Source of the DNA: a virus
IMG/VR virus record: IMGVR_UViG_3300034418_007345
Span: 1-40,856 of that record
Length of the DNA: 40,856 nt
Strand: one strand, 5' to 3'
Position numbers and translations under genes: made by a program. The notes under the pieces were generated by a model. The model saw only the letters and a list, made by a program, of their open reading frames with translations. It made no database searches and was not told the origin of the DNA. Positions within the stretch are counted from its first letter, which is position 1. The number at the start of each line of letters is the position of its first letter. Shown one piece after another: positions 858 through 40,635 of this stretch.

Positions 858-1583
858 ATGGAGCGAGTCCAAAATGTATATTCTTTTAAAGGAGGAAAAG
901 CAGTAGCCATGACAATGGAAATAATTAATTACATAGCAAGCCCTTATGTAAATACAACGCACAGGACTGTAATAGGTGCTTTACTTAGGGCAGGGGTTTA
1001 TGATAGAGGTAGTGCTTTGGGTATTGATGAAATAACTGAACTTGCGGCATATTCAGACAGGGATTATGTAGGTAAAGCTTTAGGTTCTTTAACTGTTTCG
1101 CAGTTGGTTATTCAGTTTAGATCAAAAGATAGGAAGAAAAAGTTTTACTTAAATCGAGATTTTGCAAGTCCAATTGGTAAAACGGTATTACCAGAAAGTC
1201 AAATTGTCAAGCAAGAACCTAGCATAAAGAAAGAGAAAAAACTTACCCCACCAAAGAAACCAAGTGGAGATTTGCAGAAACTCTTAGAGTATACAGAGCA
1301 ATACGTTGGGAAAGTTAAACTATCTCAAGGTTTATGTATAAATTTAAACAAATGTATAAAAGATTTTGGTTTAGAAAAATGTAAACAGTTTGCAGATATT
1401 GCGGCTAAAGATAGTTTTTGGAATGCTCCAGAGAGGTTTTCTTTAAATTCAATTTATTGTGCTAAAAATATCGACAAATGGCAGGTAGTAGCGAACAGGC
1501 AAGAAAAATTTAAGGCAGAGGAAAAGAAAGTAAACGCCACCCCTAGAAATATTAGTGATGCAGAGATGAACTTTTTGGAGTAA
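858..1583 (+). CDS. Winged-helix replication initiator / replisome organizer
   Basis: 241 residues. The N-terminal half (about 30-105) looks like a winged helix: HRTVIGALLRAG, then IDEITELAAYSDRDYVGKAL, then a basic beta wing ending at FYLN. A lysine- and proline-rich linker follows (about 125-145). The C-terminal helical half (KCIKDFGLEKCKQFADIAA..FWNAPERFSLNSIY) resembles the DnaD / lambda O-type domain that recruits the helicase. It lies 2 bases before the DnaB-type helicase gene, the usual pairing of initiator and helicase. Start choice is uncertain. ATG 858 would be nearly leaderless given the TATAGT at 846. ATG 909 has AAAGGAGG upstream but with a long spacing of about 14 bases. Confidence 0.7.
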   Translation: MERVQNVYSFKGGKAVAMTMEIINYIASPYVNTTHRTVIGALLRAGVYDRGSALGIDEITELAAYSDRDYVGKALGSLTVSQLVIQFRSKDRKKKFYLNRDFASPIGKTVLPESQIVKQEPSIKKEKKLTPPKKPSGDLQKLLEYTEQYVGKVKLSQGLCINLNKCIKDFGLEKCKQFADIAAKDSFWNAPERFSLNSIYCAKNIDKWQVVANRQEKFKAEEKKVNATPRNISDAEMNFLE

Positions 1584-1585
1584 AA

Positions 1586-2857
1586 ATGAAACACACAGTA
1601 CAAGATTTAGAACAAGAGATACTCTCTCTTGCGATTAAGAATGAACATTATTTAATTGAGCTTCTATGTGAAAGAGCGGATAACCCTATATTCCCAAATT
1701 CAATGTTTAATGATGTCCTTGATATTGCAGAAGGGTTAATACAAGAAGACAGGAAAGCGACTAGGGGCACTCTCTTAGTGCAGACTAAAAACTTACCCCA
1801 CCTAAAAGATTACATTAAATCCCTTAAAGATTACTCTATTGATTCCGATTGGAAGTATTACAAAGATAAACTCTTAGATCACTATAGAGTCGAAAGAGTC
1901 AAAAAGATTGCAAACAAGATTAGTGAACTAAATAACATAGATAAAATACAAGGAGCATTTGAAGAGATGGAAAATACTTTAACCCAAAGGAAGTCAATAG
2001 GACTAATTCATGTAAGTGAGATTGTCGACCAGGTTTACAATAATCTTACAAAACCAGAAGATACAAGGGAGCAGTATTTACAAACTGGATTCCCGACTAT
2101 TGACGAGTATGTTCTTGGAATAGCTCTTGGTTCATTAATTGTTATAGCAGCTAGACCTTCTAAGGGGAAATCTTCTTTAGCCCTGTCCTTATTGAACCGA
2201 ATGTCTAAAATGTATGACTGCGTTTTATTCTCCATTGAAATGACAAATACAGAAGTTACAACTAACCTTCTAGCAGGTACAACAGGGCAAAACTTAGGAA
2301 GAGCTAGAGCTAAAGGTTTAACGTCTAAGCACTCTATTGATTTACTCAATTCAGGGAAAAGTGAACTTGCAAGGAGAAATATAAAGGTTTGTGATTCAGC
2401 AGATATTAATATCTATAGACTTCATCAAATTATTAAACATGAAAAAATGAAGAACCCTAACCTTAAATGTATCTTTGTTGATTACATTGGCATCATGCCT
2501 TATAGTTCCGCTAACCAGACAGAGTATCAAGCGTTATCTGAGATCACCAAGACACTTAAACAGATTGCCATTAAATACAATATTGTCATATTCGCTCTAG
2601 CTCAATTAAATAGAAAGGTAGAAGACACTGCAACTAAAGTGCCAAATCTTGCAAGCCTTAGAGGTTCAGGGTCAATAGAGCAAGACGCTAACCAAGTATG
2701 GTTTATCCATCACCCGAATGAGGAAGAAGATAAAGAAGAAAATAGATTGGTTATTGATACAGATATTATAATCGCCAAGAACAGAGGAGGTAGAACTGGT
2801 ACAGTCGGACTAGCGTTTGATAAAGGAGCAACAAAATTTTATGACAAACAAGACTGA
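1586..2857 (+). CDS. dnaB: DnaB-type replicative DNA helicase
   Basis: 423 residues, near the usual length of phage DnaB-like helicases. An N-terminal helical domain (about 1-110) and linker precede the RecA-like domain. Walker A is ARPSKGKS (189-196), followed by LFSIEMT (the SxEM motif). Walker B is CIFVDYIG (about 295-302). A later LAQLNRKVE and LRGSGSIEQDANQVWFI match the helicase H3/H4 region, and AKNRGGRTGTV ends the core. It unwinds DNA at the fork as a hexamer. With no phage polymerase or primase visible, it probably loads the host replisome. Three codons' worth of spacing or less from the initiator suggests coupled translation. Confidence 0.9.
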   Translation: MKHTVQDLEQEILSLAIKNEHYLIELLCERADNPIFPNSMFNDVLDIAEGLIQEDRKATRGTLLVQTKNLPHLKDYIKSLKDYSIDSDWKYYKDKLLDHYRVERVKKIANKISELNNIDKIQGAFEEMENTLTQRKSIGLIHVSEIVDQVYNNLTKPEDTREQYLQTGFPTIDEYVLGIALGSLIVIAARPSKGKSSLALSLLNRMSKMYDCVLFSIEMTNTEVTTNLLAGTTGQNLGRARAKGLTSKHSIDLLNSGKSELARRNIKVCDSADINIYRLHQIIKHEKMKNPNLKCIFVDYIGIMPYSSANQTEYQALSEITKTLKQIAIKYNIVIFALAQLNRKVEDTATKVPNLASLRGSGSIEQDANQVWFIHHPNEEEDKEENRLVIDTDIIIAKNRGGRTGTVGLAFDKGATKFYDKQD

Positions 2858-3026
2858 GATTTTAGATAAAGCAATTGAAAAGAAAGTTCGTTTAGATTTA
2901 CTTGTAACTTCTTCAATCATTAATAAGGTTTGTGATTACCTTGGTATGACAAAAGAAGAACTTTTAAATGAAATAGAATTTACAGATCAAGAAATAGAGA
3001 AAATAGTTACAGCTGTACAGCTGTAA
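2841..3026 (+). CDS. Small helical protein of unknown function
   Basis: 61 residues from ATG 2841, which overlaps the end of the helicase gene. A TTG at 2817 in the same frame is less likely. An AAAGGAG lies about 13 bases upstream. The protein is charged and probably all-helical (KAIEKKVRLDLLVTSSII, YLGMTKEELLNEI). Its last codons lie in a perfect 16-base palindrome (3009-3024, ACAGCTGT twice) followed by eight A. I recognise no family. By position it may be a helicase-associated accessory factor, but that is only inference. Confidence 0.55.
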   Translation: MTNKTEILDKAIEKKVRLDLLVTSSIINKVCDYLGMTKEELLNEIEFTDQEIEKIVTAVQL

Positions 3027-3041
3027 AAAAAAGGAGAAAAA

Positions 3042-3209
3042 ATGATACCAGTAAATCAATTATTCCAATTTGTAAGATATATTAATAAATTGGTTAAATT
3101 TGGAAGGAAGACAGATGTAAAATACTACCCACAGCTTGCTAGATATTACGCTAAGCGTGAAGAAATACTTGCAAAAGCTAAAGAAAAATATCGAAAGAAT
3201 AAATTATAA
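3042..3209 (+). CDS. Small basic protein of unknown function
   Basis: 55 residues (MIPVNQLFQFVRYINKL.. to ..YRKNKL). AAAAGGAGAAAAA gives a good ribosome site for ATG 3042. Rich in Lys, Arg and Tyr, with a helical C-terminal third (YYAKREEILAKAKEKYRK). The stop codon overlaps the start of the AAAGTATTACTTT operator at 3208. No family recognised. A nucleic-acid-binding role would fit the charge but is not shown. Confidence 0.5.
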   Translation: MIPVNQLFQFVRYINKLVKFGRKTDVKYYPQLARYYAKREEILAKAKEKYRKNKL

Positions 3210-3230
3210 AGTATTACTTTGTGGTACAAT
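3208..3230 (+). promoter_or_regulatory. Operator-promoter unit, copy 1
   Basis: AAAGTATTACTTT (3208-3220) is a perfect odd-centred inverted repeat. It is followed at once by GTGGTACAAT, an extended -10 (TGG-TACAAT, -10 at 3225-3230). The same unit occurs at 33467-33489 with the same spacing and one base difference at the centre of the palindrome. It drives the gene at 3251. A repressor binding the palindrome would cover the -10/-35 spacer. Confidence 0.65.
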
Positions 3231-3250
3231 GTAACTGAAAAGAGAAAAAT

Positions 3251-3394
3251 ATGGATCCAGGAGAAATAGCAGAAGAGGTAGCAAGTACTTTTATAGATAA
3301 AATTAACAGTATATTGGCTGAAATATACAAAGAAGAAGCACTACAATCAAAATACACTTTCGAAGAGTTTAATAAAAAATACGGAATCAACTAA
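3251..3394 (+). CDS. Small acidic protein of unknown function
   Basis: 47 residues (MDPGEIAEEVASTFIDKI.. to ..NKKYGIN), acidic and probably helical. It is the first gene after the operator-promoter unit at 3208. AAAGAGAAAAAT precedes the ATG. Its TAA shares a base with the next ATG (TAATG, 3392-3396), so the two genes are probably coupled. No family recognised. Confidence 0.5.
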   Translation: MDPGEIAEEVASTFIDKINSILAEIYKEEALQSKYTFEEFNKKYGIN

Positions 3395-3591
3395 TGGAAA
3401 ACACAAGTATTAGATTGACGAGGGAGCAGCATATACAAATTGAACACATGCTTGCTCTTGAGTCAAAAAAAAATAAGGTAGAAAGGCTAACAAAGAATAA
3501 GCTTATCAATATGGCGATTAATGATTTTTACTTGAATCGTTATTTATCTAAGCTTAAACCGAGTGATTTAATAGAGGAAAAAGATGATTAG
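3394..3591 (+). CDS. Small ribbon-helix-helix-like DNA-binding protein
   Basis: 65 residues. The pattern is TSIRLTREQHIQIEHML (short strand then helix), a polar turn, then LTKNKLINMAINDFYLN (second helix). This fits the ribbon-helix-helix repressor fold. Such a protein would bind short palindromes as a dimer, so the nearby AAAGTAnTACTTT operator is a plausible but unproven target. Coupled to the gene before it by TAATG, and overlapping the next gene by 8 bases. Confidence 0.5.
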   Translation: MENTSIRLTREQHIQIEHMLALESKKNKVERLTKNKLINMAINDFYLNRYLSKLKPSDLIEEKDD

Positions 3592-4645
3592 AATATTATT
3601 ACTATTAGTTATGGTTATGATGACCACAACTGCAAAAGCAGAAAACTTACTTTACTCAAATCGTGGAGAGTATTTCTATAGGGGAGACCCAACAATAACT
3701 AAAGTAGAAATTGACTCTACTTACTCTACAGAGTTTCAAGAGTTAATCAAAGAACAGATTGGTTTATATTTAGATGAGCCTGAATTTACAATTAAGTCTT
3801 TAAATTCAACTGACACTAGGCAAAGTGGAGTTTTAAGATTTGTAAATTTTAATGATGAAGATTTTTCTTACTGTAATTGCGGTGGTTATTTTTCGACTGG
3901 GTCGTGGTATAGACAGGTCAATAACACTTTATTCGCAACTGCACCAATTATTGTTACTCCAGAGAATAAGGGTACACTAATCCATGAAATAGGACATTTC
4001 TTAGGCTTAGCGCACGAAAGTCCAAAGACTACTTACATTCTTAAAAAGAGAAAGAATAAGAAAAATCTTTGGTTGGTTAATCAAGATGCCAACTTTAAAG
4101 ATCAAATCCTTGGAGCGGATCAGATGATGTCTTATGGAGCAAGACCAACGACATACGACCTTAGACCAAACTACTCAGATTTATTTTACTTTAATGTTCA
4201 AGCATTTAAAGAAAGAGATTTCCATGTTATCTACTCTGATAATCTATTTAGGTACAATGGTGCAGACTTACTTTTTGTATCAAAAGACCAGAAAATTCCA
4301 GCAGTTATTAATGGAGATTTCAAAGAAACTAGAGATGGTTATGTAACAGCAGTCGGCTATCTTGTACAAGATTTAGGGTTTATAACTTTACCAAGAACAA
4401 AGGATACTTATAAAATTTATGCAGTGCCACAATCAAGTAAAAACAATTTACCAAACCCAGAAGATGTTTCAGGTCTAACAAAGCCAAAGTTACTTGGCAG
4501 AGTGTCCATCAAGGGAGATCAGGTAAAGTTCGACAAAAAAGCAAGAAATAATGGTTTTGAACTATTACTTTCTTCTAAGCAGACACTTAAAGTTTTAAAG
4601 CAAAGTAATGAGTTAGTAACAGAACAAGACTTTATAGTTAAATAA
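3584..4645 (+). CDS. Secreted metzincin zinc metalloprotease
   Basis: 353 residues. The N-terminus is a Sec signal peptide (hydrophobic IRILLLLVMVMM, likely cleavage after AKA at 19), so the enzyme goes to the periplasm or outside. The zinc site HEIGHFLGLAH is at 134-144, matching HExxHxxGxxH, with E145 next. The Met-turn follows as QMMSYG at about 180-185. This is the metzincin signature (matrixin/astacin-like). CNC at 97-99 precedes the active site; whether it could act as a latency cysteine is speculation. The C-terminal 150 residues are beta-rich and unassigned. The lysozyme gene begins 10 bases after its stop, so a role in lysis or envelope breakdown is likely. A virion or host-targeting role is possible. 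Confidence 0.85.
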   Translation: MIRILLLLVMVMMTTTAKAENLLYSNRGEYFYRGDPTITKVEIDSTYSTEFQELIKEQIGLYLDEPEFTIKSLNSTDTRQSGVLRFVNFNDEDFSYCNCGGYFSTGSWYRQVNNTLFATAPIIVTPENKGTLIHEIGHFLGLAHESPKTTYILKKRKNKKNLWLVNQDANFKDQILGADQMMSYGARPTTYDLRPNYSDLFYFNVQAFKERDFHVIYSDNLFRYNGADLLFVSKDQKIPAVINGDFKETRDGYVTAVGYLVQDLGFITLPRTKDTYKIYAVPQSSKNNLPNPEDVSGLTKPKLLGRVSIKGDQVKFDKKARNNGFELLLSSKQTLKVLKQSNELVTEQDFIVK

Positions 4646-4655
4646 GGAGATATAA

Positions 4656-5210
4656 ATGTTTAAGAAGATATTTGGATGGCTTGGAGATGCACTACTTAAT
4701 ATGTTAGATGATGAACCTGCAAGTAAAGGGCATGAAGTAAGCCCACAGTTAGTAGAAATGATTAAGCACTTTGAAGGTTTTAGAAAGCACCCTTATAGAT
4801 GTTCAGCAGGGGTTTGGACTATTGGATATGGAACAACAACTTATCCAAATGGAAAGCAAGTTACTTTATCCGATCAAAACATTGGTGAAGAGTATGCAGA
4901 GAAACTCTTAATAAGTAAACTTAGACAACACTTTGTACCAGTAGTTAATGATTACGTTAAGAAGCCATTAAAGCAACATCAGTTTGATGCACTTGTAAGC
5001 TTTGTTTATAACATTGGGGCAGAAGCTTTTGCAAAGTCTGCATTACTTAGAAAGTTGAATGGATCATTCCATAAAGATGTAGTTGCAGAAGAGTTTCTAA
5101 GATGGAACAAAGCAAGGAATCCAGAGAGTGGAGAGCTTGAACCTTTAGAGGGTTTAACTATTAGAAGGAAAGCAGAAGCTGAACTTTATAAGACTGGGAG
5201 ATATCCCTAA
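4656..5210 (+). CDS. Endolysin, T4-type lysozyme (GH24)
   Basis: 184 residues. The catalytic pattern E40-(8)-C49-(5)-T55 (in HFEGF, YRCSAG, WTIGYGTT) reproduces the spacing of the T4 lysozyme Glu-Asp-Thr triad, with Cys in the Asp place as in many phage lysozymes. QHQFDALVSFVYNIG and IRRKAEAELY are further family hallmarks. It cleaves the glycan chains of peptidoglycan. The first 20 residues (FKKIFGWLGDALLNMLDD) are amphipathic to weakly hydrophobic and could be a signal-anchor, but they are not a clear Sec signal. AAGGAGATATAA gives the ribosome site. It lies directly after the metalloprotease. Confidence 0.9.
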   Translation: MFKKIFGWLGDALLNMLDDEPASKGHEVSPQLVEMIKHFEGFRKHPYRCSAGVWTIGYGTTTYPNGKQVTLSDQNIGEEYAEKLLISKLRQHFVPVVNDYVKKPLKQHQFDALVSFVYNIGAEAFAKSALLRKLNGSFHKDVVAEEFLRWNKARNPESGELEPLEGLTIRRKAEAELYKTGRYP

Positions 5211-5252
5211 AACACTAAGCATGGGGGTATTAAGATTAATGGAGGATGAAGA

Positions 5253-5504
5253 ATGAAAAAAAAATACTTTCCTACTACACATTTTAAGAGGAGGTTTAAA
5301 GAAAGAATGGATAGAGATTTAGAAGTTGCTGACATCTTATACATAGCAAACAAACTTAATAAAAGACAGTATAAAGTAGCAGATATAAATACAGCAAACA
5401 AGCATAAAGGTGCTACATACCTTATCAACTTTAAGGGACAGGACATCATGATAGCTATCGATAGACAACAAGGCAGATTAGTAACTATTATGCCAGCAGA
5501 TTAA
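5253..5504 (+). CDS. Small basic protein, possible RelE/DUF4258-like fold
   Basis: 83 residues with ATGGAGGATGAAGA upstream of the ATG. It starts with HFKRRFKERM, then a helix and beta strands (YKVADINT, GATYLINFKGQDIMIAID, GRLVTIMP). The order, basic helix then a small antiparallel sheet, recalls small RelE-like or DUF4258 proteins. No catalytic residues can be assigned, and no antitoxin-like partner is evident. Function unknown. Confidence 0.5.
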   Translation: MKKKYFPTTHFKRRFKERMDRDLEVADILYIANKLNKRQYKVADINTANKHKGATYLINFKGQDIMIAIDRQQGRLVTIMPAD

Positions 5505-5525
5505 ATAAATAATGGAGAAAAATAA

Positions 5526-5711
5526 ATGTTAAGTAGAGAAGATCAAGCGCAGTTATATTCAGATGCTTTAGCAGGAGCTTTAGAAAAAACAGTTAAAGAA
5601 GTTATTTCAACAGCAGCAAGTAAAAATGTAGATATAAGTTTATTTAACATGAAGCCAATAACCTTTGGGGTTTTGGGTTCGACTTATGAGTTAAAGAAGG
5701 TGAGTAAATGA
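5526..5711 (+). CDS. Small protein of unknown function
   Basis: 61 residues. AATGGAGAAAAATAA precedes the ATG. The first 35 residues look helical (REDQAQLYSDALAGALEKTVKEVIS) and the end is beta-like. It overlaps the next gene by 4 bases (ATGA). No family recognised. Confidence 0.45.
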   Translation: MLSREDQAQLYSDALAGALEKTVKEVISTAASKNVDISLFNMKPITFGVLGSTYELKKVSK

Positions 5712-5914
5712 TTAAAAAAATATTACTAGAGGAATTAGAAAATTTAAAGCTTGTTTTATCCGCAGGTCATAAAGATTTTGTTGAAGGTGATTACAATTGC
5801 TTTCTAAGATTAGCGGAAGCTGTAGAAAAACATTTAGAAGATATCGAATTGAAACTTACGAAGTTAGAAGCAGCAAATACAATAGATCAATTAATAGAAG
5901 AGGGAGATTTATGA
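5708..5914 (+). CDS. Small acidic coiled-coil-like protein
   Basis: 68 residues, strongly helical with leucines at heptad-like spacing (LLEELENLKLVL, LRLAEAVEKHLEDIELKLTKLEAA). It is coupled to the gene before by ATGA and to the next by an ATGATGA overlap. No family recognised. It may be an oligomeric adaptor, but nothing shows a partner. Confidence 0.45.
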   Translation: MIKKILLEELENLKLVLSAGHKDFVEGDYNCFLRLAEAVEKHLEDIELKLTKLEAANTIDQLIEEGDL

Positions 5915-6027
5915 TGAAATACACAGAAAGATCATTTGCGCAAAAGAAAAGGTTACACAGGCAAACCTTAAAACAGAAACTTAAACTTATCAAATATAAA
6001 ACAAACAAAAGGAAGATGAAATACTAA
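5911..6027 (+). CDS. Very small, highly basic protein
   Basis: 38 residues (MMKYTERSFAQKKRLHRQ.. to ..NKRKMKY), more than a third Lys or Arg. GAGGGAGATTT precedes two possible ATG codons (5911, 5914). It sits tightly between two genes: it overlaps the previous stop, and its TAA shares a base with the ATG of the resolvase (TAATG). A nucleic-acid-binding helper for the resolvase is a guess from charge and position. Confidence 0.45.
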   Translation: MMKYTERSFAQKKRLHRQTLKQKLKLIKYKTNKRKMKY

Positions 6028-6587
6028 TGAAAATACTAGGAATTGATCCAGGGGTTAAAGGGGGTTTATGTTTCTTTGATGTAGACAAAGGAGAGTTTCA
6101 ACTTTATCCAATGCCTTTAATCCAAGTGCCAACAAAAACGAAAATTAAAGTTAGTAAATTAACTAAGAAGCAGAAGCAACATAGAAAGGAAACAGGAGAA
6201 GATTTCTATAAAACAGAAGCGGAAATTCATACTAACTATATTGCTAACTTGATGAGGATTGAACAACCAACTTTAACAATCTTAGAAAAAGCTTTTTATC
6301 CATTAGGGCAAAATAACTATAAAACCGCAGAGAGATATGGAGAGCTTAGAGCGTTAATTAAACAGCATTGGCTTACAAAAGATTATGCAGTTATTAGACC
6401 ACAGACTTGGAAAGCACACTTTGGTATTGGATCAGATAAAAATGAAGCAATCGCTTTAGCAGAAAAGCTAAATTCAACCATTGACCTTAGACCAACCCCA
6501 AAGAGTAAACCATCTGATGGGTTAGCAGAAGCGTTTTTAATGGCAATATATGGTAAAGAAAACTACAACCAATTAACAATTTTTTAA
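6027..6587 (+). CDS. RuvC-like Holliday junction resolvase
   Basis: 186 residues with an RNase H fold. ILGIDPGVKGG carries the first acidic residue D7, ILEKAF carries E87, and KPSDGLAEAFLMAIYG carries D164 and E168. VIRPQTWKAHFGI matches the V.P..WK motif of RuvC-type enzymes. A lysine-rich stretch (about 35-55) is inserted between the first two strands. It would resolve branched DNA made by Rad52-type recombination before packaging. Shares TAATG with the gene upstream. Confident of family, less so of exact substrate. Confidence 0.85.
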   Translation: MKILGIDPGVKGGLCFFDVDKGEFQLYPMPLIQVPTKTKIKVSKLTKKQKQHRKETGEDFYKTEAEIHTNYIANLMRIEQPTLTILEKAFYPLGQNNYKTAERYGELRALIKQHWLTKDYAVIRPQTWKAHFGIGSDKNEAIALAEKLNSTIDLRPTPKSKPSDGLAEAFLMAIYGKENYNQLTIF

Positions 6588-6623
6588 TAAAATAATAATA
6601 TGGAACACTCCGGAGATGATTAT

Positions 6624-7532
6624 ATGGTAGAACCAGAATTACAGGAATTAGAAGAACTTGAAGAAGAAAGGGAACTTGACCTTAAACCAAGGGGATATAC
6701 TTGCGATGCAGTTAAAGATTACCTACAAAGGATATCAAAGATACCTTTATTAGATGTAGATGAAGAACTAGAGCTTGCAAGAAACTATATAAAAGCTACG
6801 ACTAAAACAAAAAAACTTTTTTATAAAAATAAAATGGTGCAGCATAACTTACGTTTAGTTGTTTCCATCGCAAAGAAATATTTACATCGAGGGTTACCAT
6901 TTCTTGATCTTATCCAAGAAGGGAACTTAGGGCTTATTAGAGGGGTTGAAAAGTTTGATCCATCTAAAGGTTACAAGTTTAGTACATACGCCCATTGGTG
7001 GATAAGACAAGGGGTTATGAGAGCGATTGCAGATAAGTCAAGAGTGATTAGAATTCCAGTGCATGTGGGAGAGAAAATCCAAAAGTTAAGAAAGTGTGCA
7101 GCTTTATTTCATCAACAGAAAGGAGAGCAACCAACTTTAGAACAACTTGCAGAAATATTAGATTATCCTCTTGAAAAGGTTGAAGAATTACAGAAGCTTA
7201 TAAGTTTTTATGATTGTGAAAATAGTATATATTCTTTAGACTATGAAATAACGCAAGATGCTAAAAGGAAAGAATGTCTATATGCAGCAGTTGGTTTAGA
7301 AGATGAACAAATGGAGCATATCGAAAATAAACTTACTTTAAAACAACTCTTTGATGGAGCAAACCTTACAGAAAGGGAAAGGGATATATTAATCGAAAAT
7401 CTACTTGAACAAACTTCTTTACAGAACCTTGGTAACAAGCATGGAATAACAAGAGAAAGAGCAAGACAAATTAGACTTGTTGCCGAAGAGAAGATGAGAA
7501 AGACTTATGAGTCTGGATATCTTAATGGTTGA
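6624..7532 (+). CDS. Phage sigma-70-family RNA polymerase sigma factor
   Basis: 302 residues from ATG 6624, chosen because CCGGAG lies 8 bases upstream. ATG 6600 in frame has no ribosome site. An acidic N-terminus leads to region 1.2 ([16 protein letters not shown]). Regions 2.1-2.4 follow (about 60-145), including [33 protein letters not shown] and [18 protein letters not shown], then region 3, then region 4 (about 240-295), where [11 protein letters not shown] is the -35 recognition helix. The -35 contact residues match E. coli RpoD. In region 2.4 the position of RpoD T440, a -10 contact, is Met (M132). It should redirect host RNA polymerase, probably to the leftward virion genes. It is the last gene of the operon, and its TGA abuts the convergent stop codon at 7533. 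Confidence 0.93.
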
Positions 7533-25573: not shown

Positions 25574-26398
25574 CTAATTATAACCCAAATTGCATATTGT
25601 CTTAGCAGTTATACTTTTTATCTTCTCTCTCAGGCTTGAACCACCATGTTTAGGAATGATTTTACGATCCCATGCAAGCCCAAGAGTTCTAAAAGCTGCT
25701 GCTGCATGTGTATGTTGATCTCTTGCCTCTGTATTCGTGTATACACCTGTAGATTGATTCTTTTTCTTCTTATAGTTTCTTAAATGGTTAATTAGTTTTT
25801 TACATTTACCTTCATCGAACCAGCAATAATTCATTAAGCGCATACAGATTTCAACATCATCTGCTACATTTTTCCCTCTATCAACCTTAATAATATTAAT
25901 ACCTTTTTCTTTTTTTAGTTTATTAACCCTGCTAGTGGACTCTGTAACATAATCTTGTGTATGCCCACCATCCCATGGTAAAAAATGAATAGGTACTGTA
26001 TGTTTAGACGTAACAGTGTCAATGAACTCACCAGAGCTACAGCCTTGCATTTCAAAATAATCAATGATTTTAACCTTTTCATCTTTAGGAAATTGCGCAA
26101 GGATACAAGTATAAAGGTCAATCCCACCTTGTGCTAAGTCATAAAAGCCGTATGTAGGTATCATTATATCTTGTGGGACAAAGGTTATTCTTTCTTCATC
26201 ATCAACTTTTTTCATTGAATGTTTAAACCATGCTCCAGAAGCAGAAGCTTTAAAAGAACAGTAATACTCTTGCTGTATTGTTTCTGGGTCTGCACCTTTT
26301 TCTAACTGTTCCTCAACAAACTCTTTATTAATAATTGGAGTACCATCATTGTAATAGGTATCTTCTATAGTTAGTAACCATGCTGCGTATCTACCCAT
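25574..26398 (-). CDS. Terminase large subunit, nuclease half (separate cistron)
   Basis: 274 residues. RNase H-like nuclease domain: YGFYDLAQ (D87), FLPWDGG (D143) and RDQHTHAAAAFRTLG (D227, H229) supply the acidic metal-binding residues. It begins at ATG 26398 in the overlap TAATG with the ATPase gene, in the -1 frame relative to it. GGAGGAAGG lies 7 bases upstream, so it has its own ribosome site. In most phages this domain is fused to the ATPase. Here the two must assemble from separate chains. It cuts concatemeric DNA during packaging. Confidence 0.8.
   Translation of the reverse strand: MGRYAAWLLTIEDTYYNDGTPIINKEFVEEQLEKGADPETIQQEYYCSFKASASGAWFKHSMKKVDDEERITFVPQDIMIPTYGFYDLAQGGIDLYTCILAQFPKDEKVKIIDYFEMQGCSSGEFIDTVTSKHTVPIHFLPWDGGHTQDYVTESTSRVNKLKKEKGINIIKVDRGKNVADDVEICMRLMNYCWFDEGKCKKLINHLRNYKKKKNQSTGVYTNTEARDQHTHAAAAFRTLGLAWDRKIIPKHGGSSLREKIKSITAKTICNLGYN
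25575..25582 (-). promoter_or_regulatory. TATAATTA element before portal region
   Basis: Leftward reading TTGGGTTATAATTAGGAGAG. It overlaps the TAG stop codon of the terminase nuclease gene, just ahead of the 98-residue and portal genes. As at 11529, the element lies across a gene end with the ribosome site directly downstream. No -35 consensus seen. Confidence 0.45.
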
Positions 26399-27162
26399 TA
26401 AACACCTTCCTCCATTTTTCTTTTAGCGTAAAGGTATTCTTCAAAAAAGTGATTTTCCCCTTTCGGAGTACCAACTTTAAAGCAGAAACCTCCATTTTGT
26501 GCAAAGATCGGTGCAAAGATTTCATCTATAACATTTGCGTGCCAGTCGCCGAACTCATCAGCTACCAACCCCATTGGGTTTAAACCCCTTAAATGGTTTG
26601 CTGTTCCATCTGTTCCTCGAACCCCTACAATCTGGTAAATCGAACCATTCTTTAGTTCAAGAGACATTGCATGGTTATTCTTCTTCTTCCATAACTCTCT
26701 TGGGAATAATTCTAAATAGTTAATTGCTTGCTCTTCTGGGTTTCTAGTGGTTTTACCGATACCATTCCAAATAGCAGTCCTTCCTTGAGTTAAACTAGGG
26801 AACGCATGTAAATACAACCCTCTTTGCTCCATCATCCACTGTAGGAATATTCCTTTAAGGACACCTACGGATTTACCAAACCTTCGGTGGCAAACAGCAA
26901 CACCTTCTAAGTTTTTAAGAAATTGTCCGTCTGGTCCACGCTGTGTAAAATGCTTAATCCATTCGTATTGATACCTTGTAGGTTCAAAAGAACCCCATAA
27001 ATCCGTATTCTTATCATCTTTTGGGTTAAAGGTTTCAACAATCGAATCATAATCACTTGGATTATAGATATTTGCAGTGGAATTTAAAATTTCCTCTGTT
27101 GATAAATCAGAAGGATCAACCTGTTCCCCTGGGTCTGCTATTTTAATCCTTGCTTTGCTCAA
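26398..27162 (-). CDS. Terminase large subunit, ATPase half (separate cistron)
   Basis: 254 residues. Packaging ATPase domain: CHRRFGKS (91-98) is the Walker A variant of phage terminases, GLVADEF (198-204) the Walker B with D202/E203, and GTPKGENHFF (231-240) the coupling motif. SFEPTRYQYEWIKHF is the adenine-binding region. The chain stops right after the coupling helix (KRKMEEGV). The nuclease domain follows in a different frame from its own ATG. It powers DNA translocation through the portal. Confidence 0.85.
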   Translation of the reverse strand: MSKARIKIADPGEQVDPSDLSTEEILNSTANIYNPSDYDSIVETFNPKDDKNTDLWGSFEPTRYQYEWIKHFTQRGPDGQFLKNLEGVAVCHRRFGKSVGVLKGIFLQWMMEQRGLYLHAFPSLTQGRTAIWNGIGKTTRNPEEQAINYLELFPRELWKKKNNHAMSLELKNGSIYQIVGVRGTDGTANHLRGLNPMGLVADEFGDWHANVIDEIFAPIFAQNGGFCFKVGTPKGENHFFEEYLYAKRKMEEGV

Positions 27163-30363: not shown

Positions 30364-30714
30364 ATGAAAAATAAACTAATAACACTGGGATTAGGGCTGC
30401 TACTTAGCAGTCCAGTATCAGCAGGAGGAATCTATAGATACCATGACGAGGACGCCTATAAAGCTTATAGAGCACAAGAGGCATACAACAATGCCAAGAA
30501 GCAATATAAACTGATGCAAAAGAGAGCAACAGAGTATAAACGCCTTTCTACATACCATAGGAAAGCTACAAAATACTCTAGGGCTTATGAACGTCAAGAT
30601 AGCAAAACTTTTGATGCTGAGGCTCAGGTATGGGATTCTGGAGTTAATGTCCCTGCTTTATACAGACCTGGACTAGATTTTAAGCAGACATCAATAAAAT
30701 TAAGAAGATATTAA
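30364..30714 (+). CDS. Early exported protein
   Basis: 116 residues with a typical Sec signal peptide (KNKLITLGLGLLLSSPVSA, cleavage likely after A20). The mature part is basic and Tyr-rich with a helical stretch (AYKAYRAQEAYNNAKKQYKLM). It is made early and sent to the periplasm or outer membrane, where superinfection exclusion or receptor masking would be plausible jobs. No family recognised. AAAGGAAAAAAGACA precedes ATG, matching the start region of the gene at 29808. Confidence 0.55.
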   Translation: MKNKLITLGLGLLLSSPVSAGGIYRYHDEDAYKAYRAQEAYNNAKKQYKLMQKRATEYKRLSTYHRKATKYSRAYERQDSKTFDAEAQVWDSGVNVPALYRPGLDFKQTSIKLRRY

Positions 30715-32677: not shown

Positions 32678-33454
32678 ATGGATTATATAGTTAGCTATTC
32701 AGGCGGTTTAGGATCATTCCTTGCCGCTCATAAATTAAAACAAGAAAAACCTAATGCGAGGGTTAGGTTAGTATTTTGTGATACTTTAATTGAAGATGAA
32801 GACTTATACAGATTCTTAGATGAGAGTGCCAAAGCTCTTGACCTTGAACTAATCAAGATAGCAGATGGTAGAACTCCATGGGAATTATTTAATGATATGG
32901 GATTTCAAGGAAACTCAAGAATTGCACCTTGTAGCTCACAATTAAAAAGAAAAGTCTTTAATTCTTGGTTAGCAGATAACTACCCTGATAGAGATTTTAT
33001 TGTTGTCATGGGTATAGGTCATGAAGAAGCTGAAAGACTTGAGCGTGCAAGAAAGAATAATAAGTATGAGATTATTGCGCCTTTATGTGAAAAACCTTAC
33101 TACTTTAAGGAAGATCAAGAAAAAATACTTAAACAGTACAGTTTGAAAAAACCTAGACTGTATGATTTAGGCTTCCCACACAATAATTGTGGAGGATTTT
33201 GTGTAAGAACAGGTTTAGCACAATTTGAGTTACTTTATAAGACATTTCCTGAGCGTTTTAAGTTCCATGAAGAGCAACAGGAAAAGTTAATAAGAGAAGT
33301 GCCAAAAGCAAATAAACCCTTTTTAAGAAAAAGAATTAATAATCAACTGCAATATATAACCCTTAAAGAGTTTAGGATAAAATATTTAAACTTATCTCAA
33401 CTAGAATTATTTGACTTTGGGGGCTGTGGTTGTTTTGTTGATGATGAAATATAA
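32678..33454 (+). CDS. PAPS-reductase-like PP-loop ATP pyrophosphatase
   Basis: 258 residues. The PP-loop SYSGGLGSF (6-14) binds ATP in adenine nucleotide alpha-hydrolase enzymes. LVFCDTLIEDEDLYRFL and IVVMGIGHEEAERLERA are further conserved strands. Cysteines lie in APCSSQLKRK, NNCGGFCVR and GGCGCF and could hold a metal or a thiolation site. Relatives include PAPS reductase, tRNA-thiolating enzymes and DndC. Here base modification of nucleic acid or interference with host sulfur or defence chemistry is more likely than sulfate assimilation, because no partner genes exist. The substrate is not deducible from the sequence. Confidence 0.8.
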   Translation: MDYIVSYSGGLGSFLAAHKLKQEKPNARVRLVFCDTLIEDEDLYRFLDESAKALDLELIKIADGRTPWELFNDMGFQGNSRIAPCSSQLKRKVFNSWLADNYPDRDFIVVMGIGHEEAERLERARKNNKYEIIAPLCEKPYYFKEDQEKILKQYSLKKPRLYDLGFPHNNCGGFCVRTGLAQFELLYKTFPERFKFHEEQQEKLIREVPKANKPFLRKRINNQLQYITLKEFRIKYLNLSQLELFDFGGCGCFVDDEI

Positions 33455-35537: not shown

Positions 35538-35590
35538 ACGCACACACAATCCAATGACCCCTGCCTGAGCTTCCTTCACAGGGGTTTTTT
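35538..35590 (+). ncRNA. Candidate short RNA 1 (promoter to terminator)
   Basis: About 50 bases from the predicted start to the U-run, without room for a gene. It has a CA-rich single-stranded head (CGCACACACAATCCAATGA) and a terminator hairpin tail, the plan of a bacterial base-pairing sRNA. It could also be a by-product if the promoter mainly reads through. Confidence 0.4.
35557..35590 (+). terminator. Intrinsic terminator of the early operon
   Basis: ACCCCTG (35557-35563) pairs with CAGGGGT (35579-35585), followed by TTTTTT. It ends the rightward early operon 35 bases after the SSB-like stop codon. On the other strand no U-run follows, so it acts one way. Confidence 0.85.
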
Positions 35591-35876
35591 ATTTACATTT
35601 TGTTTTTAAAATTGTGTTGTTTTCTTTAATGGTTTTTAAAATTTCATCGTCTGTTTTTCTGATATATCTCGTATCTTCTACCATGTCCGCTAAGTGATGA
35701 TCTATCTGTCTTGTTGATTCTGCTAAACTTCCAACATGATTGACGAAGATTGGCGTATAAGTGAACAATAGATACAACATTGAACCACCTAAGACCGATA
35801 AAATAACAAAGTTTGACCCTTGGTTGATTAACCATCTGATAATCTCTTTGTCTTTCAACAAATCTTTAGTGTCCAT
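35589..35876 (-). CDS. Small membrane protein with coiled-coil tail (holin or spanin candidate)
   Basis: 95 residues. One membrane helix at about 22-45 (FVILSVLGGSMLYLLFTYTPIFV) is followed by a charged, helical tail (RQIDHHLADMVEDTRYIRK, DEILKTIKENNTILKTK). A single helix plus coiled coil fits an i-spanin or a small holin. No other lysis membrane protein is evident near the lysozyme. No Shine-Dalgarno is visible before the ATG. It stands alone on this strand between two rightward units. Confidence 0.55.
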   Translation of the reverse strand: MDTKDLLKDKEIIRWLINQGSNFVILSVLGGSMLYLLFTYTPIFVNHVGSLAESTRQIDHHLADMVEDTRYIRKTDDEILKTIKENNTILKTKCK

Positions 35877-37044: not shown

Positions 37045-37272
37045 TCAGGGGGTTTCCTCCGATACGGGTAGCAAAGACTGAATGTTTTCAAACGGCTCTA
37101 CTAAATAACTGACGTTCAGTTTATCTTGAAATAAACCAGGGATTTCGGTCAAGACATCTTCCATCAAGAACCAACGCCCGTCTGTTAGTTGCACTGGGGC
37201 AAGGCGATGCTGCCCTGTTTGATTGGCGATTAATGTTTGTGCATCTTCGTTAGTAAAAATTAGTACGTTCAT
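37045..37272 (-). CDS. Tail-cassette accessory protein, smaller paralogue
   Basis: 75 residues, sharing an opening motif and a G[RK]WF motif with the 130-residue gene downstream. It overlaps the end of the adhesin module gene by 4 bases. Low hydrophobicity, no signal peptide. Probably a fibre chaperone or a small tail part. No family recognised. Confidence 0.55.
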   Translation of the reverse strand: MNVLIFTNEDAQTLIANQTGQHRLAPVQLTDGRWFLMEDVLTEIPGLFQDKLNVSYLVEPFENIQSLLPVSEETP

Positions 37273-37943
37273 GGTATTGCTGCTCCTATTGCTGTCATTA
37301 GATTAGACACTCTTGTGTCAAGTTGTGCAAGGTCGAGGGACTCGCCGATGGAGTAAAAGGAAAGTCTGTGAGTGCCGTATATAGATGGTGTGATTCGAGC
37401 AAAAACTCCGATGTTTATGTTTGCTACGCTAGTTGAAGCCAAGACTTGAGCGGTCGTTACAGAGTTTACTCGATAGTTATAACCAGTCGAGGTACTTCTG
37501 CTCCATCCAATAAAGTTGTTATCTGTCGCCACTCCAGAAGTTATTAGGTTGCCTCGGCTCTGTGTAAATAAATTCGCTCCGTTTGTGTATATTTCTGAAT
37601 CATTCGTTCCAATCAAATATCGTACACCAACTGTTGATCCTGTTTCGGTTTTGTATACCGAAAGGTGCATATCGTTTAGAGTTATGCCCTGTTCGTCGTC
37701 CGTTATGTTGCTGTCCAAATACTTCGTAGCGCCGTCGCCCTTCAAACCCGTCTTGCGATCGTAGTCGCCAGAGACAAAGTTGAAGTTGGTTGGTGCATCT
37801 CCTTTCAGTGGAATCAATGCACCGTTTAGACCATCCCACGCTGCCATGACGCAACATGCTTTGATGGGATCCCAGATACCATCGGATTTACAACCCGCAA
37901 TAAATATATCAATAGCATCTACAAGATTTTTTATTTGGCTCAT
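37269..37943 (-). CDS. Tail adhesin module, paralogue of the end of the 568-residue protein
   Basis: 224 residues. It copies the last 230 residues of the upstream protein: FIAGCKSDGIWDPIKACCVMAAW against FVLGCKADGIWDAIKSSAILAG, then a shared NFVSGDYDRKTGLK.DGATKYLDSN, and a final SFYSIGESLDLAQLDTR. DNA identity is also high around 37690-37800 and 38470-38580. The domain is beta-rich, laminin-G-like. The gene starts in the stop codon of its neighbour (ATGA). Probably a second receptor-binding unit born by duplication. Confidence 0.7.
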   Translation of the reverse strand: MSQIKNLVDAIDIFIAGCKSDGIWDPIKACCVMAAWDGLNGALIPLKGDAPTNFNFVSGDYDRKTGLKGDGATKYLDSNITDDEQGITLNDMHLSVYKTETGSTVGVRYLIGTNDSEIYTNGANLFTQSRGNLITSGVATDNNFIGWSRSTSTGYNYRVNSVTTAQVLASTSVANINIGVFARITPSIYGTHRLSFYSIGESLDLAQLDTRVSNLMTAIGAAIP

Positions 37944-39646
37944 GCTAGTGTACCTCCTGCGGCGTATCCGGCATTTACATAGTTGAGTGTGTCAATATTA
38001 TAACTACTTGGATTCAATCCAGTATTGATAGCGAACTGCATTTCAGCCATGAATCTCGTTGTGCGCGTATCAAGAAGTGCAAGGTCGAGTGCTTCCCCAA
38101 TGGAGTAGAAGGCGATACGCCCATCGCTACTCGCTGTCAAATCACGGGTAAATACGCCAATGTTTTGATTCGCTGGTGTTTCAGATGATGTTACTTGCGT
38201 GTCAATCTGACCAGAAGACCTCATCGTGTAATTTGTTGCATTATTACGGTTTGTGCCAAGAAACCCAGTAACAGGTAACGCAGCACCTTGCACAACATCA
38301 AACCCGTTTCGGTTTCTCGCTGAAATAACGCCGAGGCCATTGCTTATATTTGACGCTCCTGTATTAATACCACCCGCACCGATTAACGCCATACCAGGCG
38401 CATTAGACTGTGCTTGTGAAACAAAAACACTTAAGTGATAACTATTTTGTGGATCAGCATCATTGTTCCTGTTGCTATCTAAATACTTCGTAGCGCCGTC
38501 GCTCTTCAAACCCGTCTTGCGATCATAATCACCAGACACAAAGTTGAAGTTGGTCGGAGCAGTACCAGTTAGTGGAATCAATGCACCAGAAAGCGTTCTA
38601 GCTCCAGCTAAGATTGCAGAAGACTTAATTGCATCCCAAATACCATCCGCCTTGCAGCCCAACACAAAGTTGTTGATGGCAGTCCTAACGGAGGCTTCTA
38701 GCGTCTGACCGTCTGCTGTTTCGACTGCGGTGATGTAGGCTTGTGCGTCAGAGTCGTACACAGGTTCACCTATATACGGTGGATATAACTTGTACGGATG
38801 TCCTATTGGTAAATTGCTTTCAAGTCCCCATTTCCAAGCGAGGTAACCTTCCAGTTTTTGACGGTCAGCGGTGGTCATTGTTGAGTGTGTAAGCACAATT
38901 TCGCAAAGTTGTGAGCCTGAAGGCAGTGGGTTTACTCCGCCAAATATACTTGCGCGCTGTGAGTCTGTGTCGCTTGTAACGCCAGCCGTTTGAAATGGTG
39001 CGCTTGTTATGTCTTGCGTTCCATCGGTCCAGTGATTTGCTACACCGTCAGAATATGCCGCCTGACCTACGCGAATCCACTGGTTGCCACGATTTGCAAG
39101 CGAATCGGTAGAGCTAGATACTGTTTGGTACGAATCTGAATCTAAGCGTCTTCCAGCGATTGCATATCTGTTGCCTGTGCTTGCCGATGGATTAGGCGTA
39201 AAAGCAAAACGTGTGCTTTCTGTTATTACGCCTGTACGAATAAATAGTTCGTTCGTATTGCTGGTAAAAGTTAATCCAGATGGATGCACACCGACGATTG
39301 CGCATGTGATGCCGCTGACGTTTCGTCCGAGTGAAGTCGCACCGAGTTCTAAAATGTCGTTTCCGTCTGTTTCGAGCGTAGGCTTTCCATTGAATCCTGT
39401 TGATAAATAGGTGGGTTGTAACGAAGCCGTTGCTTGACTTGCATTTCTATTATTTCCACTCTTATCATCCCACTGACTGACGGTTGAACCGTTAAGTGTA
39501 ATTGAAGCTGTGTCCTCAGCGTCAAGCCACAGAGCAAGATCAGCACCTAACTCATCTGGTCGCCACAGTTTCTTACCGCCCACAGCAGTGCCGTCCCAGC
39601 GATAAGGATGGTCATAAGGTAGTTTGTTTACGAGTTCAAGAACCAT
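37940..39646 (-). CDS. Tail adhesin with two laminin-G-like domains
   Basis: 568 residues. Domain 1 (about 28-280): LALWLDAEDTASITL..VSQWDDKSGNNRNASQAT, ending LEGYLAWKWGLESNLPIGHPYK, which is the concanavalin/laminin-G-like form of many phage tail proteins. Domain 2 (about 310-550) is the module repeated in the next gene. The ATG follows in frame immediately after the TAA of the upstream gene, with GGGGAGG 7 bases upstream. The opening LVNKLPYDHPYRW is what should follow KWG in one continuous protein. So the pair looks like one polypeptide cut in two by a stop-start. Confidence 0.75.
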   Translation of the reverse strand: MVLELVNKLPYDHPYRWDGTAVGGKKLWRPDELGADLALWLDAEDTASITLNGSTVSQWDDKSGNNRNASQATASLQPTYLSTGFNGKPTLETDGNDILELGATSLGRNVSGITCAIVGVHPSGLTFTSNTNELFIRTGVITESTRFAFTPNPSASTGNRYAIAGRRLDSDSYQTVSSSTDSLANRGNQWIRVGQAAYSDGVANHWTDGTQDITSAPFQTAGVTSDTDSQRASIFGGVNPLPSGSQLCEIVLTHSTMTTADRQKLEGYLAWKWGLESNLPIGHPYKLYPPYIGEPVYDSDAQAYITAVETADGQTLEASVRTAINNFVLGCKADGIWDAIKSSAILAGARTLSGALIPLTGTAPTNFNFVSGDYDRKTGLKSDGATKYLDSNRNNDADPQNSYHLSVFVSQAQSNAPGMALIGAGGINTGASNISNGLGVISARNRNGFDVVQGAALPVTGFLGTNRNNATNYTMRSSGQIDTQVTSSETPANQNIGVFTRDLTASSDGRIAFYSIGEALDLALLDTRTTRFMAEMQFAINTGLNPSSYNIDTLNYVNAGYAAGGTLA

Positions 39647-40399
39647 TTATATTCCTCCCCATTTCCATGCAAGATAGCCCTCAACTTTTTGTCGGTCTTC
39701 GGTCGTTACTAAATCGCTCGATGTAATTATTTCAGCAACAGCTCCATCCGTTACCTGCTGCGCACCTGCAAAATCTCGCCCGATCGTGTTTATTGTTAAA
39801 TCTGACGCACCCAGTGTTTGACTGAATGTCGTGACCGTTCCACCGTAAATATTGAGCTTTACCTCATCGTTTGCAGTATCAAGTTGAACGCAACCAAATG
39901 CATATTCTGCCGTAGATCCACCGGCAATTTCAGAGAGAATGGTCTGCGTAGATGCGCTTCGGTATTCAAGACGTTCGCCATTGACATTCCATGTCGGTAT
40001 AAACGAACCGGGATCCGCACCGCTCAACTGCGGGTACGTTGATGAACCTCTATTCGCTAAAATGAAAACTGTAGCAGACGTTGTAAATTCGGGGATCGAA
40101 AAGAAATCATCAATAGCATCAAATTGAATTACACGTCGATTGTTGAGGTCAATTGGATTAGTCGGCTGTGATGTTGCTGTTGCTTGGCTTGCGTTCCTGT
40201 CATTCCCGCTTTTATCATCCCACTGGACAACATGATTAGAACCACCCGGACCAGGACCACCGCCACCTCGTAGCGTGATCGTGCTTGCATCATCTGCATC
40301 TAACCATAAAGCTAACCCCGTAAGCTCAGCAGGAGTCCAAGATACGTTTCGCTGACTTTCAATTCCTAATCTTAAATTTAGTTTCAGCCCGAAACTCAT
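39647..40399 (-). CDS. Tail laminin-G-like protein (N-terminal half of split adhesin)
   Basis: 250 residues. WTPAELTGLALWLDADDAST opens a laminin-G-like domain, and VEGYLAWKWGGI ends it right at TAA. A Gly/Pro-rich loop (GGGGPGPGGS), missing in its paralogue, lies at about 47-56. ATG 40399 is preceded by TAAGGTA and the TATAATTA element. The first 57 codons are present again, with six differences, at 1-173. First gene of the GC-richer tail cassette. Confidence 0.75.
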   Translation of the reverse strand: MSFGLKLNLRLGIESQRNVSWTPAELTGLALWLDADDASTITLRGGGGPGPGGSNHVVQWDDKSGNDRNASQATATSQPTNPIDLNNRRVIQFDAIDDFFSIPEFTTSATVFILANRGSSTYPQLSGADPGSFIPTWNVNGERLEYRSASTQTILSEIAGGSTAEYAFGCVQLDTANDEVKLNIYGGTVTTFSQTLGASDLTINTIGRDFAGAQQVTDGAVAEIITSSDLVTTEDRQKVEGYLAWKWGGI

Positions 40400-40404
40400 T
40401 ACCT

Positions 40405-40412
40405 TAATTATA
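40405..40412 (-). promoter_or_regulatory. TATAATTA element before tail cassette
   Basis: Leftward reading TTTCAGTTATAATTAAGGTA then ATG. Identical to the left-end copy at 179-186. TAAGG doubles as the ribosome site. It is also one of the two direct repeats that border the 218-base insertion. Confidence 0.5.
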
Positions 40413-40417
40413 ACTGA

Positions 40418-40635
40418 AATTTAAAAACCAGCTAACACCTAATCCTTAATCAATCTAGAATCATAAAGAAAACCGCTCCGCAGCTTTATCAGTGTTAGGG
40501 GATATAGTTAATCACTCTATACCAAAAGGAATAGCTACTGGCTATTACAGGGCACTTAATTGATTAGATCAAGTATTGCCTCACGTCCTACGTTTCCTTC
40601 GAGATTTCAGACGTTCTTTTTAATTATATCAGTTA
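40418..40635. other. 218-base insertion present in only one copy of the locus
   Basis: The left end joins ACTGAAA directly to CCCCACGA. Here 218 bases intervene, bordered by TTAATTATAACTGAAA and TTAATTATATCAGTTAAA. Recombination between these two imperfect repeats would give the left-end form exactly. The insert codes for nothing evident. Read leftward it would be a leader of about 200 bases from the TATAATTA at 40621. Confidence 0.6.
40621..40628 (-). promoter_or_regulatory. TATAATTA element, distal copy
   Basis: Leftward reading AACTGATATAATTAAAAAG, with a TGA extension before TATAAT. Of all copies this and 22550 best resemble true promoters with room for a leader (about 215 bases to the tail gene). 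Confidence 0.5.

Follow-up and report, generated by a model that had tools for sequence, protein, structure and literature searches.

A secreted metzincin-type protease gene directly ahead of the lysozyme gene of an aquatic phage: a possible, probably optional, helper in lysis

How phages without spanins open the outer membrane of their hosts is an open question, and it is not a rare situation, given that 91 of 677 surveyed Gram-negative phages (about 13%) have no recognisable spanins (PMC6139136), a figure of 13% of phages without identifiable spanins that is repeated elsewhere (PMC12819732, citing PMC6139136). The viral record analysed here, from an aquatic phage, raises a related question, namely what a gene for an apparently exported zinc protease does immediately ahead of the endolysin gene. 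Throughout, the window refers to the whole stretch of DNA analysed, 40,856 bases at 36% GC, and the features of the protease gene within it are as follows.

3584..4645, + strand: secreted metzincin-type zinc protease, 353 aa, recognised by its motifs and signal peptide
3584..3640, + strand: predicted Sec signal peptide MIRILLLLVMVMMTTTAKA, residues 1-19, with an SPase I site between AKA and EN and without a lipobox (by eye, and from the hydrophobic segment 1-19)
3983..4015, + strand: zinc-binding motif HEIGHFLGLAH, residues 134-144 (H134, E135, H138, H144), from the translation, a motif scan and an alignment
4121..4138, + strand: Met-turn QMMSYG, residues 180-185 (M182, Tyr184), 38 residues past the third zinc His, by direct reading
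4229..4642, + strand: C-terminal extension, residues ~216-353, beta-rich in a low-confidence model, with no family match

The preliminary description had named a signal peptide, the motif HEIGHFLGLAH and a Met-turn, and all three can indeed be read in the 353-residue ORF at 3584-4645. Its ATG start codon is preceded by a GAGG Shine-Dalgarno sequence, and the N-terminus reads MIRILLLLVMVMMTTTAKA followed by EN, with cleavage predicted after AKA. A six-frame search of the window finds the pattern HExxHxxGxxH a single time, and 60 first-order Markov-shuffled windows do not contain it at all; the expected count over all long open frames of the window is 1.4e-4. The columns of the zinc motif are invariant in alignment A6, the protease included. 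Both the HExxHxxGxxH/D motif of the metzincin clan and a Met-turn C-terminal to it are present. By its motifs and signal peptide, the protein is predicted to be a catalytically complete, Sec-exported metzincin, its enzymatic activity and its location both being predicted properties.

Within the clan, the protease is best described as a divergent member, assigned to the metzincins by motif. It falls below the curated cut-off of every Pfam and NCBIfam family (matrixin, astacin, reprolysin, serralysin and pappalysin included), with a best Pfam score of 18.3 bits for Peptidase_M10 against a cut-off of 24. The serralysin model scores 19.3 against a cut-off of 500 (E 5e-4), the LegP model covers residues 129-185 (E 0.044), and the M10, M12, M43, serralysin and LegP families all match around the active site alone, below cut-off. 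No family for the protein was found in PHROGs, no relative by tblastn of sequenced phages and plasmids, and no full-length bacterial homologue using GTDB patterns with about 1000 genomes searched; the full-length homologue searches returned near-identical contigs or active-site-only matches, and nothing else. Structure prediction and a fold search had been proposed as a check: a strand-helix-strand order is plausible in the AF2 models (single-sequence and 18-row), yet with pLDDT values of 37 and 52 these are too weak for fold assignment, and Foldseek returned no match for them at E<=0.001. We judged the Foldseek matches of these models to be meaningless, and PDB matrixin matches of profile A6 were set aside as evidence for the protease because that profile is dominated by matrixin-like rows.

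The phage has a T7-like podovirus layout, with a portal (phrog_332), tail tubular proteins, a major capsid protein and an internal virion protein (phrog_684). Its host was probably Gram-negative, since the capsid and portal proteins share 24-29% identity across most of their length with those of Pelagibacter and Alteromonas podoviruses, and more weakly resemble those of Vibrio phages. Several other features of the genome deserve record. The large terminase (25574-27162, minus strand) is split into two adjoining ORFs, an ATPase half and a nuclease half, with a 1-nt overlap; the split recurs in the independent contig L029 (960-2548), so a sequencing error peculiar to this record does not account for it. 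Three consecutive virion-type ORFs with repeated modules (37269-40399, minus strand), within which 37706-37823 and 38470-38587 are 87% identical, diverge strongly in the related contig L004 and are possibly variable receptor-binding genes. An auxiliary metabolic gene at 32678-33454 (plus strand) encodes a PAPS-reductase-like protein (phrog_424, 8.7e-44), and the phage's only other clear predicted secreted product is a 116-aa protein with a signal peptide and no family match (30364-30714, plus strand). The genome appears to be either a circle or a circular permutation with terminal redundancy, because near-identical sequence stands at the record ends (1-205 and 40227-40432) and contigs L002 and L004 span the junction.

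The immediate surroundings of the protease gene comprise the following.

858..7532, + strand: co-directional run of replication and regulation genes (DnaB helicase, small ORFs, protease, lysozyme, RuvC-type resolvase, sigma-70)
3394..3591, + strand: 65-aa ORF of no family, overlapping the protease start by 8 nt (ORF list)
4656..5210, + strand: T4-type lysozyme (endolysin), 184 aa, without a signal peptide and with an amphipathic N-terminus (Pfam, PHROGs)

The lysozyme is clearly identified (Phage_lysozyme PF00959, 134 bits, 4.6e-39; phrog_7 endolysin), and the ORF boundaries (4645 and 4656) bear out the spacing given earlier: exactly 10 bases, with AAGGAG among them, separate the protease from it. 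The 8-nt overlap at the protease start possibly reflects translational coupling, and together with the 10-base spacing it suggests co-translation. Since the two genes lie inside the replication and regulation run, which converges on the virion operon of the opposite strand, they do not form a late lysis cassette. An endolysin gene likewise lies within the replication module of Alteromonas phage ZP6, one gene from the helicase. The run ends with an RpoD/RpoS-like sigma-70 factor comprising regions 1.2 to 4 (6600-7532, plus strand), which faces the late operon.

No spanins, whether an o-spanin lipobox with an i-spanin transmembrane domain or a u-spanin, are recognisable in the window, and the earlier remark that no clear spanin pair is seen holds up under a lipobox scan of all starts in all frames, which gave no lipoprotein candidate. 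The protease itself is not spanin-like, an N-terminal signal peptide being its sole such feature. No ORF of the window could be identified with certainty as a holin; one at 35589-35876 (minus strand) has one apparent membrane segment and no family match.

Conservation in related phages, a mark of an essential lysis gene, breaks down for the protease in one relative. In a close relative, L004 (IMGVR_UViG_3300005613_003727), which is 97-98.6% identical in the helicase, the 65-aa ORF and the start of the lysozyme, most of the gene is gone.

3638..4634, + strand: stretch of 997 bp deleted in L004, whose position 7486 joins window 3637 to 4635

The junction, at which ACTGCAAAA runs directly into TAGTTAAATAAGGAG, has 1 base of microhomology, and leaves a relic in which the first 18 protease codons (most of the signal peptide) are followed at once by the gene's final bases and terminate at TAG. 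As both ends of the gene are kept, the arrangement is most simply explained by loss, and not by ancestral absence. Of the neighbouring lysozyme, 218 bases are present before the contig ends inside it, and these show 98.6% identity, with one replacement in the first 204 coding bases compared. L004 also has extra ORFs, one of 129 aa, a DUF805-like membrane protein, ahead of the relic and another of 65 aa behind it. The contigs L002 and L003, by comparison, carry a protease gene identical to that of the window at all 1062 bases, within mosaic flanks of 0-4% divergence. A selective sweep was considered for this identity and rejected, other 300-bp blocks being identical too. Given the deletion and this mosaic population, the site ahead of the lysozyme is, on the contigs compared, best read as an accessory slot open to recombination. 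At least one relative, represented by a single contig (L004) in which an assembly error is possible, seems able to do without the protease.

We also considered whether metzincins adjoin endolysins in other viruses. A pattern scan of IMG/VR viral contigs (HE[hydrophobic]GH..G..H) gave at least 120 stretches, from which 87 ORFs were examined. Among the matches listed (about 87 viral metzincin ORFs), three loci have an endolysin-type gene at most two genes away (L043, L065 and L056), which amounts to no general endolysin-metzincin enrichment in IMG/VR; viral metzincins among these matches are therefore not generally linked to lysis. One large secreted metzincin family of ~420 aa, A2, is found in at least 95 aquatic viral contigs (L161-L239 and alignment A2); we found no characterised member, and its gene contexts are varied, often behind ribonucleotide-reductase genes. 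In one lineage of A2 (L199, L205, L206, L056/L210), the first base of the metzincin gene is also the final base of a T4-type lysozyme gene, and an M15 peptidase (Pfam, above cut-off) comes next in L199 and the partial L229.

L199:452-2653; L205:122-1848; L206:1338-3046; L056:1-1550; L229: lysozyme-metzincin(-M15) cassette

Five of about 79 A2 contigs are endolysin-paired, a position count that is biased because the endolysin queries were mostly chosen among neighbours (four of the five), and these five contigs probably represent one lineage. At a further locus, L043, the gene of a SleB-type hydrolase with a signal peptide (PF07486, 1.2e-27) shares 4 nt with that of a lipoprotein metzincin. Counting the window, there are at least three unrelated endolysin-metzincin arrangements. 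It is conceivable, though rather unlikely, that aquatic phages of several unrelated lineages have each taken up secreted metzincins on their own as lysis enzymes of a third class. Such enzymes would digest envelope proteins, would be coupled to endolysins of the lysozyme, M15 or SleB type, and would replace or supplement spanins.

The preliminary description had proposed that the protease digests envelope proteins during lysis. Part of that proposal remains plausible in view of a precedent in Listeria, the Mtz-Tim module discussed below, of the pairs elsewhere and of the missing spanin, whereas a required outer-membrane disruptor is opposed by the L004 deletion and the replicative operon. We infer its role in lysis, its timing and its substrate along the following lines. 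Exported by Sec, the protease would reach the periplasm or the surface of the infected cell, probably a Gram-negative one, and would cleave envelope proteins while lysozyme is made; wall and outer membrane might then yield faster, or virions detach more completely, with the enzyme serving as a dispensable adjuvant of lysis or release and not as an essential outer-membrane disruptor. The motifs, the signal peptide, the tight spacing, the lack of any spanin or lipoprotein in any frame, the loss in L004 and the pairs elsewhere speak for such an aid, while the count of three endolysin-linked loci among the listed metzincins, the replication operon and the lack of a Tim-like secreted partner speak against it. 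We give an even chance to this reading, in which a dispensable accessory protease acts on the envelope and assists lysis or the release of virions. Because L004 lost the gene, the protease is probably a helper that the phage can forgo, and this natural loss sets the limit of its role: it may help, and is probably not required.

A first alternative, which we think unlikely, is superinfection exclusion or receptor destruction, in which the exported protease would cut proteins of the host surface or, in the periplasm, those of incoming virions, and so shield the infected cell or stop progeny rebinding to debris. Its replication or middle operon position suggests expression before lysis, the gene is accessory and easily lost, and the slot in L004 holds a membrane protein with a likeness to DUF805 and a weak one to phrog_12855 (moron category); however, the linkage to lysozyme and the pairs in other phages suit lysis better. 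Equally improbable in our judgement is a general moron or auxiliary protease (releasing nutrients, or countering defence by acting on periplasmic or extracellular proteins) that stands beside the lysozyme by chance. The variable slot, the PAPS-reductase-like auxiliary gene elsewhere in the genome and the fact that most viral metzincins among the matches listed are not beside endolysins are consistent with this, but chance placement fits poorly with the tight spacing and overlap, and with endolysin pairing repeated in unrelated lineages. That the phage disrupts the outer membrane solely by digesting outer-membrane or tether proteins, making the protease an essential spanin substitute, draws on the spanin-free window and on the surveyed spanin-less phages, yet we consider it very unlikely because L004 lost the gene and kept the adjacent lysozyme start, unless its 129-aa membrane ORF or 65-aa ORF took over. 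Finally, packaging of the protease in the virion is barely credible for a protein with a cleavable signal peptide, encoded among replication genes on the strand opposite the virion operon.

The proposed aid to lysis can be set against known systems at several levels. The Met-x-Tyr Met-turn is common to the protease, astacin/LegP (M12A) and serralysin (M10B), and a Glu follows the third His as in astacins, features that we take, from established family characters, to be astacin-like, although the protease scores far under the curated cut-offs of the astacin/LegP and serralysin models. The closest cellular sequences, metzincins of Catenovulum and Gayadomonas (L010, L011), share 43% identity over 56 aligned columns round the active site (hhalign 96%), but are lipoproteins of about 250 aa whose Met-turn region fails to align. 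Members of A2 (L039, L056, L199 and others) have comparable features, namely a signal peptide, HEIGHSVGLAH and LMSYG, but they are of 417-450 aa, have another N-terminal region, are reprolysin-like in Pfam and reach an hhalign probability of only 77% with the protease. Spanins and disruptins perform the outer-membrane disruption that the protease would also fill; they are not enzymes, and the protease is without the lipobox, transmembrane domain or amphipathic-peptide architecture that they possess.

The nearest functional parallel comes from listerial prophages, in which Boichis et al. 2021 described Mtz, a secreted metzincin of phage origin paired with the TIMP-like lipoprotein Tim, encoded by an accessory module that often lies downstream of holin-lysin; when mtz-tim was expressed, about 5-fold more virions were released, and the lysis-sensitivity phenotypes depended on active Mtz (PMC8235301). 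Mtz-Tim belongs to a Gram-positive host, acts through cleavage of Tim and sits downstream of the lysin, whereas the protease lies upstream of its lysozyme, in a phage of a presumed Gram-negative host with no Tim-like partner nearby, the window holding no lipoprotein and the protease gene no secreted neighbour. As in Mtz-Tim, an exported metzincin gene, here 10 bp before the lysozyme, adjoins a phage lysin. With its natural deletion variant and its parallels elsewhere, this secreted, endolysin-linked protease is a testable candidate for an enzymatic aid to lysis outside Listeria. The likeness to Mtz, which is one of features and not of compared sequences, lies in Sec export, in HExxHxxGxxH with a Met-turn and in the accessory nature of the gene, and by this analogy the protease may, at most, be like Mtz in its action.
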